From Streptomyces sp. MBT53 (GTDB lineage: Bacteria; Actinomycetota; Actinomycetes; Streptomycetales; Streptomycetaceae): 64,000 nt of DNA. Below are positions 18,894 through 25,628 of this stretch, one piece after another. Under the pieces are notes generated by a model. The model was given only the letters and a program-made list of their open reading frames with translations. It was not told where the DNA came from and searched no databases. The stretch lies in contig NZ_JAEQAZ010000020.1 in assembly GCF_016654115.1 (NCBI RefSeq), positions 1-64,000 of the forward strand, read 5' to 3'. How positions within the stretch are numbered: the stretch's first letter is position 1; every line of letters begins with the position of its first letter. The position numbers and the translations under genes were made by a program.

Positions 18894-18923
18894 CTCCCCC
18901 TGCTTGTAAGGGATTTGTCTGTC

Positions 18924-19951
18924 ATGAGCCCCAGCGCTCCGGTCCCCTCGGCCCGGACGGAGGGCCCCTTCCTGTCGCCCTGGGCGCATGTCGCACGGGT
19001 CGCCGCGGCGCTCGCGGCGGGCATGGGGGTCGGTCGCTTCGTCTACACCCCGATCCTCCCGCTGATGCACGACCGGGCGGGCCTGTCCACCGGCGCCGGC
19101 GCCCACCTGGCCACCGCCAACTACGTCGGCTACCTCGTCGGCGCGCTCGCGGGCACCCTCTCCCCCGCCCTGGTCCGCTCCCGCGCGACCCTGCGCGGCG
19201 CGCTCGTCCTGCTGATCGGCACGCTGGCCGCGATGCCCGCCACACAGCACACCGGGGTGTGGCTCACGCTGCGACTGCTGGCGGGCGTGGCGAGCGCGCT
19301 GATCTTCGTCGTCGCGGTCAACTCGCTCCTCGGCCACCTCCGGGACCACCCGCCGCATCTGCCCGGCTGGGGCTTCGGCGGTGTCGGCGCCGGGATCGCG
19401 CTCTCCGGCCTCCTGGTCCTCGCCCTGCGCCCGATCGCGGACTGGCGGACGGCGTGGTGGGCAGCGGCCGCGCTCACCGTCGCCCTGACGGCGGCCTCGT
19501 GGAATCTACGGCCGGAGGTGGCAGCCGCGACTGTGTCTGCCCCGGCTGTGTCTGCCGCACCTGTGTCTGCGGCGCACATGTCGACGGGGCCCATGTCGGC
19601 CACCCACATGTCGGCCGAGCGCGTGCCGTCCGGACATACGTCGACCGCGCACGTGTCGACAGACCACGTGTCGTCCGCCCACATACCGTCCGGGCACGGG
19701 ACGCCAGACCACATGTCGTCCGCGCACATGCCGGAAGCCGCTACGGCGACGGTCGACCGCCGTTTCGTCGCCCTGTTCGTCAGCTACAGCCTGGAGGGGG
19801 TCGGGTACATCGTCGCCGGGACGTTCCTGGTCGCCGCGATCGCGCAGGGCTCCCCCGGCTGCGGGCCGGCTTCCCGCACCACGCGGTGGCGGTACGACAG
19901 TCGGTGCCGGAGCAGGAACGGCGGACCGCGCCCACCGACGCGGGCCGCTGA
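18924..19951 (+). pseudogene. Broken YbfB/YjiJ-type MFS transporter with a pentad-repeat insert
   Basis: The N-terminal part is a clear YbfB/YjiJ-type MFS protein (AALAAGMGVGRFVYTPILPLM, then several membrane segments to about residue 195). A 70-residue insert of about 14 five-residue units (AAHMS, ATHMS, TDHVS, SAHIP and similar) follows. The family sequence resumes at RRFVALFVSYSLEGVGYIVAGTFLVAA and is lost after AQGSPG near base 19855. A short segment in another frame (RAGFPHHAVAVRQSV) may be the old C-terminus, ending at the TGA at 19949-19951. About 150 codons appear deleted with a frame change, so the transporter is probably dead. Confidence 0.7.
19506..19736 (+). repeat. 15-bp tandem repeat encoding His-rich pentads (MFS gene)
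   Basis: About 14 imperfect tandem units of 15 bases, in frame with the MFS reading frame, with consensus close to CACATGTCG plus six variable bases. Each unit encodes one pentad with His, Met/Val and Ser at fixed places. A similar 15-base periodicity with CAC-ATG units occurs in the conservon kinase gene at 23029-23403. Confidence 0.8.
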
Positions 19952-20114
19952 TCAAGCGGGGTGGGCCCGAGCAGGACACGGCAGTCGACCCACAGGAGGG
20001 CTCAGCCACCCGGCCGGATCGACGGACCGCACCCACCGACGCCGACCGCTGTTCAAGCGGCGCTCGCCCCCAACAGGGCGCGGCAGTTGGCCCAGAGGGG
20101 GGTCAGCCGACCGG
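19922..20114. repeat. Degenerate tandem duplication of the TetR gene 3' end
   Basis: Two similar copies of about 92 bases, 19922-20013 and 20023-20114, both start with CGGACCGC and share CCCACCGACG, TCAAGCGG and CGGCAG in register. The second copy contains the last codons and stop of the TetR gene. The first, read on the minus strand, gives a C-terminal peptide of the same length with several identities and its own stop at 19952. It is a relic, adjoining the broken MFS gene. Confidence 0.65.
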
Positions 20115-20652
20115 TGTTGTTGTAGAGCTTGGCGAACATCACCTGGCCCTCCAACTGCGCGACGACGGACCGTGCCGCCTCCCCGGTGTCCGTGACGGTG
20201 ACGTCGCCGCGGTCGCGGGCCTCGGTGACGACCGCGTCGACCATCTCGACCTGGGCGTCGAAGATCTCCTGGAGCCGGGTGCGGACGGCCTCGGTCTGGT
20301 TGCTCATCTCCAGGCTGAGGTTGCCGAACAGGCAGCCCAGTACGGTGCCGCAGCCCTGTTGTCCGGTGCGCAGGCCCGCCTCCGTCTCCTCGAACAACCG
20401 CCGCAGCCGCTCCAGCGGTTCGGCGTCCCCGCCGAGGACACGGGTCCAGTCCCGCCGCTGCTCCGCCCAGTGCTCGTCGACGACGGCCAGCGCGAGGGCC
20501 TCCTTCGACTCGTAGAAGTAGTAGAAGCTGCCCTTCGGCACCCCGGCCGCCCGGCAGATCTCGGCCACTCCCAGCGCCGAGTAGCCGCGCGCCTCGAAGA
20601 GCGAGCGCCCGGCGGCGAGGATCTTCTCTCCGGCATCACTGGTCCTACCCAT
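20053..20652 (-). CDS. TetR-family repressor
   Basis: 199-aa TetR-type regulator. The N-terminal helix-turn-helix is GRSLFEARGYSALGVAEICRAAGVPKGSFYYFYESKEAL (residues about 14-52, diagnostic part only), followed by a ligand domain of the AcrR/YcdC type with a Gly-Cys rich turn (QQGCGTVLGCLFGN). The ATG at 20652 is 12 bases from the palindrome CGACCGGTCG at 20665-20674. The same site lies before the SDR operon at 17425, pointing to autorepression and control of that operon. It converges on the broken MFS gene, whose loss may have left the repressor with one target. Confidence 0.9.
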   Translation of the reverse strand: MGRTSDAGEKILAAGRSLFEARGYSALGVAEICRAAGVPKGSFYYFYESKEALALAVVDEHWAEQRRDWTRVLGGDAEPLERLRRLFEETEAGLRTGQQGCGTVLGCLFGNLSLEMSNQTEAVRTRLQEIFDAQVEMVDAVVTEARDRGDVTVTDTGEAARSVVAQLEGQVMFAKLYNNTGRLTPLWANCRALLGASAA

Positions 20653-22787: not shown

Positions 22788-25250
22788 TCATCCGGCTGAT
22801 GCGCTCCCGTCGTGCCGGGCGGTGAGGTCGTGACCGGGCGTATGCACGTGGGCTTCGGCTATGGGGGCCGCGTCCATGTGGGGGGCGAGGAAGAAGTGGT
22901 CCGTGCCGGTGCCTGCGGCGGAGAGGGCTGAGCTGGTGCCGGTGCCTGCGTCGGTGCCCGCACTGGTGCTGGCGCCTGTGCCGGTGCCCGCGCTGGTGTC
23001 GGAACCTGCGTGGGCGGGGCCCGTGTGGTCGGAGCCCATGTGGTCGGAGCCCATGTGAGGCTGGCTCATATACACCCCGCCCGTGTGCACGCCGTTCGTG
23101 TGCACTCCGTTCGTGTGCACTCCGTTCGCATGCACCCCGTTCGTGTGCGGGAACTCCGTGTGGCCTGCCTCCGTGTGGGCCGACTCCATGTGCGCCGTGT
23201 CCATGTGTGACCCGTCCATGTGTGGCAGCTCCGCATGCGGCACCTCCACGCGCCGGACGTCCATGTGCGGGACCTCCACGTGCGGGACCTCCACGTGCCC
23301 GAGGTCCACGTGCCCGAGGTCCACGTGCCCGAGGTCCACGTGAGGTGCCTCCGCGTGCGGCACCTCCACATGAGGTGACGCCATGTCGGTCCCCTCCACC
23401 AACTCCGTTGCTTCCATGTGCTGTTGTGCCTCCGCGAGGCCGATCCCGCGTTGGAAGGCCGCCATCAGGTCCGGGTCGTGGCCGACGGGGTGCTCGGAGT
23501 CCTGGCGGGGTGCGGGGCCGTCGCGGAGTTGGGGTGCGATGTGTTCCTGGGCGCGGCGCCGGGGCAGTTGGGGCGGCTTGCCCATGGTGCCGCGTACCGC
23601 GCCGCCTCGCGGGACGGGCGGTGTGGTCGCGTTCGCCGCCACGGTGGGCCGGTCGTCGGGCCGGATGCCGGGGACGGCCTCCGCAGGGTTGGCCCGTTCC
23701 GCGTGGGCGCCGCGCACGGGCAGCGGTACCGGTCCGCCGCCGTTCGGCACCGGCGCGACGGGCGGTGCGGAGTCCCGTCGTTGATGCCGTCCCGGTGCCC
23801 CGGACTCACGCTGGTGCCGCCCGGGCGCGGCAGGTGTCGCCGCGGGCGCACCGCGCCGGCCGGCGGTCCGCCTACCACCTTCGGCACCACTTTCGGCACC
23901 TCCCTGGACCCCTCCCGCCCGATCCTGCGTCCCGCCCTGCGTCCCGCCTTGTGATCCGCCCTGCGGGGACTGCTGCGGAGGCAGAAGCGGTCGCCCCCCG
24001 CCCATCGTGTCCTCCGGTCGGCCTACGGCTCCGGGAGCACCCGGCGCCGTACCCAACAAGGCCTGTGGCACGACGAGTACGGCCTGTACGCCGCCGTAGA
24101 TGTTGGTCTGGAGGCGAACGTGGATGCCGTGGCGGCGGGCGAGTTGGGAGACCACGAACAGGCCGATGCGGCCGTCGGCCAGCAGGCTGGCGACGTTGAC
24201 CTGGTCGGGGTCGGTGAGCAGGGCGTTCATCCGGCTCTGTTCGCCGACGGGCATGCCGAGTCCGCGGTCCTCGACCTCGACGGCCAGTCCCGAGGTCACG
24301 AGGTTGGCGCGGAGCAGGACTTGGGTGTGCGGGGCGGAGAACACTGTGGCGTTCTCGACGAGTTCGGCCAGCAGGTGGATCACGTCGGCGACGGCGTGGC
24401 CGCGCAGGGTGCCGTCGATGGGCGGCACGAGTTTGACGCGGGAGTACTGCTCGACCTCGGCGATGGCGGAACGCAGCACCTCGGTCATGGAGACCGGGTT
24501 GCTCCACTGTCTGCGGGAGACGGCGCCGCCGAGGACGGCGAGGTTCTCGGCGTGGCGGCGGATGCGGGTGGCGAGGTGGTCGACGTGGAAGAGGCCCTTG
24601 AGCAGGTCGGGGTCCTCGATCTCGTTCTCCAGTTCGTCGAGGATGGAGATCTCGCGGTGCACGAGGGACTGCAGGCGCCGGGCGAGGTTGACGAAGACCT
24701 CGACCTTCTGTTCGCTGCCGGCCTGGCTGGAGAGCTGGGAGGCGGACACGACGGCGGTGACGGCGCCGTCGTGGGCGCGTGCCAGGTCGGCGGCGAGCAG
24801 GTCGAAGTCGTCGGCGTCCCCCGGCGGCCGGCCGCGCGGTTTGCGCTGGGGCGGGCCCTCGCCGCGGCGCAGCGCTTCGACCAGGTCGCGCAGATCGGCC
24901 TCGCCGCGCGCGCTGTCGCGGCGCAGGGAGCCGATGCGGTCGCTGACGGAACCGGCGGCGCGACCGGCGGCCACGGCGGCGATCAGAATGCCCGCGAACG
25001 TCACCGACGTGGCTCCGGCGAGGACGCCCCAGAGGGTGAGGCTGGTGCGTGCTCCGGTGGAGCGGACGGTGAACAGGACGGCCGCGCTGGCGCTCAGCGC
25101 GACCGCGACGGGCGGGAGCACGGCGAGGCGCAGGAGCTGGGATCGTATGTGCGTCTCGGGCAGTGCGGGCACGGGGCGGGCGGCCGGTCGCCCGTGCCGG
25201 CCGCCCTCACGGCGGTCTGCGCGTGCGGCCGGTGCACGGAGTTGAGACAT
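22788..25250 (-). CDS. cvnA: Conservon sensor kinase CvnA with His-rich pentad tail
   Basis: 820-aa sensor histidine-kinase-like protein. Two membrane segments lie near residues 40-62 and 72-95, with a very short loop, so it has no large external sensor. A dimerisation-type helix (HREISILDELENEIEDPD) and a HATPase domain (N-box LLAELVENAT; G1 VEDRGLGMP) follow. Residues after about 400 are disordered Gly/Pro-rich, then about 25 consecutive five-residue units with His in nearly every one (GHVDL, AHMES, VHTNG, DHMGS), residues about 615-740. The start is ATG 25250. The tail is unusual for this family and may bind metal ions. Confidence 0.92.
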   Translation of the reverse strand: MSQLRAPAARADRREGGRHGRPAARPVPALPETHIRSQLLRLAVLPPVAVALSASAAVLFTVRSTGARTSLTLWGVLAGATSVTFAGILIAAVAAGRAAGSVSDRIGSLRRDSARGEADLRDLVEALRRGEGPPQRKPRGRPPGDADDFDLLAADLARAHDGAVTAVVSASQLSSQAGSEQKVEVFVNLARRLQSLVHREISILDELENEIEDPDLLKGLFHVDHLATRIRRHAENLAVLGGAVSRRQWSNPVSMTEVLRSAIAEVEQYSRVKLVPPIDGTLRGHAVADVIHLLAELVENATVFSAPHTQVLLRANLVTSGLAVEVEDRGLGMPVGEQSRMNALLTDPDQVNVASLLADGRIGLFVVSQLARRHGIHVRLQTNIYGGVQAVLVVPQALLGTAPGAPGAVGRPEDTMGGGRPLLPPQQSPQGGSQGGTQGGTQDRAGGVQGGAESGAEGGRRTAGRRGAPAATPAAPGRHQRESGAPGRHQRRDSAPPVAPVPNGGGPVPLPVRGAHAERANPAEAVPGIRPDDRPTVAANATTPPVPRGGAVRGTMGKPPQLPRRRAQEHIAPQLRDGPAPRQDSEHPVGHDPDLMAAFQRGIGLAEAQQHMEATELVEGTDMASPHVEVPHAEAPHVDLGHVDLGHVDLGHVEVPHVEVPHMDVRRVEVPHAELPHMDGSHMDTAHMESAHTEAGHTEFPHTNGVHANGVHTNGVHTNGVHTGGVYMSQPHMGSDHMGSDHTGPAHAGSDTSAGTGTGASTSAGTDAGTGTSSALSAAGTGTDHFFLAPHMDAAPIAEAHVHTPGHDLTARHDGSASAG
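23029..23403 (-). repeat. 15-bp tandem repeat encoding His-rich pentads (conservon kinase)
   Basis: About 25 in-frame units of 15 bases, several nearly identical (three copies encoding GHVDL, and VHTNG in three of four consecutive units). The period is five codons with His at the same place in all but two units. Expansion by slippage or unequal recombination is likely, since the nearly identical units are adjacent. Confidence 0.85.
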
Positions 25251-25628
25251 CGGCGTCCTCGTACTGGTGCGTCGGACCTGTTTGCTCGCGCGGGGTGCGC
25301 GATTCGGGCATACGCCATCGCGGTGCCGGTCGGGAGAGCCGAAAAAATCGGCCCCGCGTCGCCCGGCGGACACTCACAGTAGTCGTCAACGCATCAGGTG
25401 CGGTGGGCAGTTGACAAAGTCCCCCGGGGAGCGTCCCGCTCTGGTATGAGGCTTCGCACGACAGACCGATAACCCCGGCGGCCGTATGCCGAAGAAGGAC
25501 AAAGAATCGATCGCCCCTGATCGGAACCGGTCACGAACGGGCGTCGAGGGCCGGGGAGTTCGATGCCGCCAGGCTCCGCCGTCCGCGTGCTCGGGGCCCC
25601 CGCGTCCGGGTCGGCGGAGTGATTTCGG
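25251..25628. other. Intergenic region between conservon and membrane-protein gene
   Basis: 378 bases between divergent genes, so it must hold both promoters. A TTGACA is present at 25410-25415 on the plus strand but has no convincing -10 partner. I see no repeat, hairpin or small gene here; the open frames are antisense artefacts of high GC. Confidence 0.5.

Follow-up and report, generated by a model that had tools for sequence, protein, structure and literature searches.

The C-terminal tail of a conservon sensor kinase encoded in the 64,000-nucleotide stretch of Streptomyces sp. MBT53 DNA analysed here (the window) contains a long array of histidine-led pentads. We consider it reasonably probable (about 0.6) that this array arose through the in-frame expansion of a 15-bp minisatellite, which would have built a hypervariable tail onto the protein. 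Among orthologous kinases such arrays differ from species to species and turn over quickly, and the same unit is found at other loci and in apparently non-coding DNA. Since the 15-letter repeat recurs elsewhere in Streptomyces, the tail histidines may reflect repeat expansion more than a role in metal binding.

The array occupies positions 22998 to 23372 on the complementary strand and was delimited from the 15-bp tandem arrays that TRF found in the window and by unit-by-unit reading. It comprises 25 in-frame pentads with a period of 15 bp, of which 23 lead with His; the exceptions are RVEVP and YMSQP. A preliminary description of this DNA had claimed a five-residue period with His in 23 of about 25 units, and the count agrees with it; the array is indeed in the kinase tail, but the interval originally assigned to it (23029-23403) was off by 31 bases. 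With His at the 3.0% of the upstream protein, the binomial probability of finding at least 23 His-led units in 25 is 2.6e-33; the array holds 23 His in 125 residues. These are written CAC in 20 units and CAT in three. The second codon is ATG, GTG, ACG or GCG in 24 of the 25 units, in keeping with the Met, Val or Thr said to follow His, and the third codon starts with G or A in every one. Neighbouring units identical at the DNA level, also remarked upon before, are three HVDLG and two HMGSD units. With 25 units of 15 bp in register, the array has the head-to-tail, constant-length organization of a minisatellite. Directly after the His pentads, the kinase tail carries a 30-bp repeat encoding a stretch rich in Ser, Ala, Gly and Thr (22933-23011).

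The source genome (11.3 Mb) is assembled in 543 contigs. A sequencing artefact is an unlikely source of the array because orthologues from two genomes of one or two contigs (G049 and G104) have the same kind of tail. An AlphaFold2 model obtained with 20 close orthologues was poor (mean pLDDT 41.8, pTM 0.22) and placed no secondary structure in the tail; since the kinase domain was poorly modelled too, the model says little on whether the tail is disordered.

The kinase ORF extends from 22788 to 25373 on the complementary strand, with a likely start at 25250 (MSQLRAPAAR), as relatives begin with the same residues. Its single Pfam domain, above cut-off, is HATPase_c (PF02518); Pfam detected no sensory domain, and a Kyte-Doolittle analysis revealed two hydrophobic segments, near residues 80-103 and 112-137. 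The protein thus combines the ATPase domain and membrane segments of a conservon (CvnA-type) sensor kinase. Alignment of 20 orthologues identified conserved columns just before the array, forming the motif LPRRRAQEHIAPQLR...GHDPDLMAAFQRG (23445-23567), and a nearly invariant C-terminal anchor, RHDGSASAG, after it (22791-22817). Behind the kinase gene, in order and on the same strand, lie genes for a CvnB-type roadblock protein (Robl_LC7, PF03259; 22282-22791), a CvnC-type DUF742 protein (PF05331; 21908-22285), a CvnD-type small GTPase (ATP_bind_1, PF03029; 21313-21930) and a GAF protein (PF01590; 20676-21329) that is CvnF-like by domain and place and lacks an NCBIfam name. The operon is a complete conservon with a putative GAF accessory, and the HATPase_c domain together with the roadblock, DUF742 and GTPase genes upholds the earlier identification of the kinase. 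A study of Cvn8 of S. coelicolor describes a GAF accessory activating a CvnA kinase without sensory domain (PMC13343842). The window operon shares with Cvn8 a kinase devoid of a sensory Pfam domain, the roadblock, DUF742 and GTPase proteins, and an adjoining GAF protein as the putative accessory. The construct in that study ends at residue 505, and its main text contains none of the words tail, repeat, disordered, C-terminal and histidine-rich (PMC13343842).

Tails of orthologous and paralogous kinases

A 901-bp probe running from the 3' end of the kinase gene through most of the CvnC gene matched every one of the 199 genomes searched within the genus at E <= 0.001. Tails were read at the stronger matches, the weaker ones possibly being paralogues. 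From 110 tail regions read, the window included, six were set aside for want of a kinase ORF and seven for failing a stricter anchor, leaving 97 usable tails, that of the window among them. Another 80 named loci, six of them without the anchor, contributed 74, bringing the total to 171 tails, 160 of them distinct; one species may occur in both sets with unlike assemblies. The nearest named relatives by kinase sequence were Streptomyces.

Measured from the conserved MAAFQRG segment, the 160 distinct tails range from 29 to 343 residues (median 131.5), and in many orthologues (R)HDGSAPAG or a close variant forms the C-terminus. His-His identity in these tails was 0.453 at lag 5, 0.393 at lag 10, 0.347 at lag 15, 0.316 at lag 20 and 0.293 at lag 25, as against about 0.09 in shuffled tails, and lay below the shuffles at all other lags up to 24. 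Runs of at least four period-5 His were present in 59 of the 160 tails, compared with 1.2 per 160 after shuffling; 52 tails had no period-5 His pair. The number of consecutive His pentads varied from 0 to 15, a change in copy number such as a minisatellite undergoes, seen here between species. The kinase of S. hokutonensis is 98% identical to the window kinase over 419 residues; its tail (117 residues) has five period-5 His, versus 23 in the window tail (225 residues). Distant orthologues had short tails or other pentads, and two of them (L125 and L115) carried pentads of the PEQYV and PDQPV types, without a leading His. Over 499 units, codon 2 was mostly ATG or a codon one step away from it, among these the rare AGG (13 of 17 Arg codons) and ATA (6 of 13 Ile codons). 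Four draft contigs end in or just before the tail (L071, L080, L102 and L105).

The same genome encodes 13 paralogous kinases, whose tails could be read by motif in seven cases. A period-5 His pair occurred in none of these seven tails, where the longest period-5 His run was 1 (the other six of the 13 were unreadable). An array of this kind as a general trait of conservon tails is therefore not supported by the seven readable paralogues, and the notion that the window array is unlike other conservon tails gained support within the same seven of 13. A tail motif resembling LPRR..Q..LAPQL is common to the window kinase (23523-23567) and three paralogues (L311, L312 and L314); it could possibly be a docking site. 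L311 has a ten-residue tail repeat of its own, of the type GSR.G..PS.

The CACATGG unit across genomes and reading frames

Three copies of CACATGG at 15-bp spacing gave 113 matches, distributed over 45 of 392 Streptomyces genomes, compared with six matches in three genomes for the same pattern written backwards; most genomes thus lack an array of the exact core. Patterns with the first C replaced by A, G or T together matched 18 of 384 genomes (39 matches, about 20 loci). When gaps of 1 to 30 bases were allowed, CACATGG repeats occurred in 33 of 121 genomes versus eight for the backwards pattern (own count), and the commonest spacing was 15 bases or a multiple, other spacings occurring too. 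In a class-wide sample, the array was present in 5 of 33 genomes of the same genus versus 1 of 312 others, many of which are smaller. Looser patterns behaved differently. Four copies of CACRYG were found in 41 of 199 genomes (170 matches), and the backwards control in 45 (own count; 104 matches); ATGG x4 matched 43 of 121 genomes and its control 44 of 121 (own count). CAC x6, a pattern identical to its own backwards control, matched 97 of 121 genomes, mostly in other sequence among the matches listed. Since neither CACRYG x4 nor ATGG x4 was clearly commoner than its control, only the full CACATGG core stands out, arrays with a 15-bp period and varied sequence being widespread in Streptomyces.

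Kinases contain 21 of the 62 arrays with three core units and a family of small membrane proteins contains 12, the other 29 lying elsewhere; the patterns with A, G or T as first base together give about 20 loci for comparison. Much of the core excess therefore falls in two gene families (33 of the 62 arrays), with many matches shared by descent; because species share units in this way, the array counts do not represent independent events. The identity of the spacers between cores was 0.593 inside an array, falling to 0.364 when loci of the same genome were compared and to 0.348 across genomes. Copying of whole arrays between loci is not supported, as spacers are alike within arrays only. In non-coding arrays the corresponding values were 0.625 within and 0.334 between. 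In one 6.9-Mb genome (G176), CACATG-type arrays of 15-bp period were fetched from 12 loci (L160-L168, L176, L225 and L226), several of them apparently non-coding.

A simple gene caller based on codon usage assigned 74 fetched arrays as follows: 42 fully and three partly in sense frame 0 (His-Met), four in sense frame 2 (His-Gly; one partly), nine antisense (three partly) and 16 intergenic. All 16 intergenic and all nine antisense arrays belong to the 40 arrays outside the two families. A stricter flank test, which moved several coding cases to one-sided or non-coding, classified these 40 as 18 without a coding frame, eight with coding sequence on both sides and 14 with it on one side. The rule by which arrays were extended favours CAC, CAT and ATG units, and CAC is fixed in the search patterns. 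Hosts with coding sequence on both sides include the C-terminus of an ABC exporter-like protein (L170), an unnamed membrane protein (L162 and L208; the L162 protein received no name from Pfam or NCBIfam) and an EF-G-like protein (L158), where the array is read in frame 2. Two arrays stand at the ORF start, one in an aldolase (L167) and the other in an ECF sigma factor (L177); for these and three other N-terminal arrays (L148, L155 and L222), the true start of the protein may be downstream of the array. A sister kinase (L210, genome G363) has the unit in frame 0 in its tail and in frame 2 in a linker before the conserved motif. Ten of the 11 His codons of the frame-2 copy are CAT, a codon used for 11% of the His of these kinases.

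The small membrane-protein family has pentad loops rich in Met and His and is represented by L172, L173, L174, L186, L188, L189, L202, L216, L217, L226, L227, L169 and L142. It received no Pfam name (L172, L189 and L226 scanned) and no NCBIfam name (L172 and L189 scanned). We presume that it resembles DUF6153; one might guess at a link with copper.

Retention of histidine and the origin of the array

Where His-led neighbours also agree at one of the other positions, the unit between them more often retained its His than that second residue, for each of the four (70:13, 51:19, 43:22 and 59:26). Of 53 units flanked on both sides by His-Met units, 20 had retained only the His and three only the Met. 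CAC also outlasted ATG in non-coding arrays (8:3), a sample too small to separate from the 20:3 of the kinases. The 463 middle codons standing between two CAC comprised 313 CAC, 35 CCC, 24 TAC, 22 CAT and 14 CGC. The change from His to Tyr was thus as frequent as the silent change, a comparison that is weakened because codon bias runs against CAT. Outside the two families, a His-giving frame was used in 21 of the 22 arrays with at least one coding flank (72% expected from codon usage, P 0.006) and in all eight with both flanks coding (P 0.07). Beyond the seeds, the G and C positions of the core were matched more often than its A and T positions, and core loss in non-coding arrays follows base composition. 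Together, these results suggest that selection for His probably acts on top of the expanding repeat, and that it is at most weak.

We propose that the unit is a degenerate minisatellite, made up of CACATGG or a one-step variant and eight free bases, which would arise repeatedly in Streptomyces. In one set of orthologous conservon kinases it would occupy a permissive C-terminal extension, between two conserved anchors, and there local duplication of units (the presumed mechanism) combined with point mutation would cause fast turnover. Codon 2 would drift from ATG to its neighbours while His (CAC) would last longest, probably under weak His selection. The product would most likely be an unstructured, length-variable appendage on the cytoplasmic side, and any binding of metal or protons by its histidines would be incidental or of minor advantage.

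If instead the kinase were tuned in the cytoplasm by metal (Ni, Cu, Zn or heme iron) that the spaced histidines chelate, with repeat number setting the capacity, one would understand both the His content of the array and the fact that His is the longest-lived pentad position. Bacterial low-complexity segments rich in His are enriched in metal-binding annotations (PMC6821194). The window tail resembles such regions in its high His content within a low-complexity segment, and differs from them in having one His per five residues and a hypervariable length. Metal binding by the tail may be possible. Nonetheless, a sensor tail of this kind seems unlikely: arrays are nearly absent from many orthologues, close ones included, replacement of His by Tyr is as common as silent change, and no metal gene among those examined ties to the operon. 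Pentapeptide His repeats, of unit GHHPH, also occur in human histidine-rich glycoprotein, a protein unrelated to the kinase, whose repeats reportedly bind zinc. His and Tyr could alternatively act as stickers through which a disordered tail of tunable valence clusters the kinase at the membrane. Both residues show strong periodicity (lag-5 enrichment of 5.5 for His and 9.3 for Tyr) and Tyr is a common replacement for His, but so are Pro and Arg (the CCC and CGC codons above), and several orthologues have no array; we regard this explanation as very unlikely.

The array might also serve as DNA, the CACATGG repeat being a binding or recombination site and its translation incidental. Such a function would suit the fixed 15-bp spacing, the common core with unrelated spacers, non-coding arrays included, and the presence of the unit in other reading frames. 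Yet coding arrays favour the His frames, core loss in non-coding arrays tracks base composition, and most genomes lack the exact core; we know of no protein that binds a CACATGG array. This explanation appears improbable. A DNA activity or structure tied to CACATGG could instead make the 15-bp tandem duplications wherever the core is present, arrays being kept by proteins that tolerate or profit from His-led pentads, the conservon kinase and the small membrane-protein family among them. Though we find this quite unlikely, it would account for arrays with a common core and unrelated spacers both in and between genes, and would endow Streptomyces with a standing generator of His-rich disordered tails. 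Non-coding and other-frame copies, swings in length, and Tyr replacement as frequent as silent change make a drifting minisatellite a better fit than a conserved metal site. The preliminary description had counted random lengths and occurrence in non-expressed frames across the genus against a meaningful array; in part this is the case, as lengths vary and the unit exists in apparently non-coding DNA and in other frames.

According to a survey, prokaryotic satellites lie mostly in genes and mostly have lengths that are multiples of three, S. coelicolor appears in a table of satellite-bearing bacteria, and transposed non-coding satellite families are rare and confined to long repeats (PMC6749651). 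The present repeat is like these coding amino-acid repeats in being mostly genic and a multiple of three in length; unlike the satellites described there, it combines dissimilar spacers with a 7-bp core that is common to many unrelated loci within one genus. A literature search, in which subscription journals were thinly covered, found no account of the CACATGG repeat or of the kinase tail. If the expanding minisatellite is the correct reading, a less understood bacterial signalling system carries a fast-changing tail of variable length, and new His-rich protein segments arise time and again in Streptomyces from a single short DNA unit. It would then be advisable, on meeting a regular His array in one genome, to check for non-coding copies and other frames before assuming a metal role.

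A second array in the window

Another 15-bp array with His pentads, missed by the preliminary description, lies 3.3 kb from the kinase array, on the forward strand (19533-19739) inside the ORF of an MFS_4 transporter. It has nine His in 14 pentads. Matches occurred in 17 of 61 genomes, and none of 11 transporter relatives taken from them had a His array in the same loop. Its units are mostly CACATGTC, not CACATGG, and a common origin of the two window arrays is not shown. The MFS_4 ORF (18915-20195, forward strand) seems broken: it diverges from its relatives after AIAQGSPG, the usual second half being missing. An imperfect 101-bp duplication is found in the same region, at 19915-20108.
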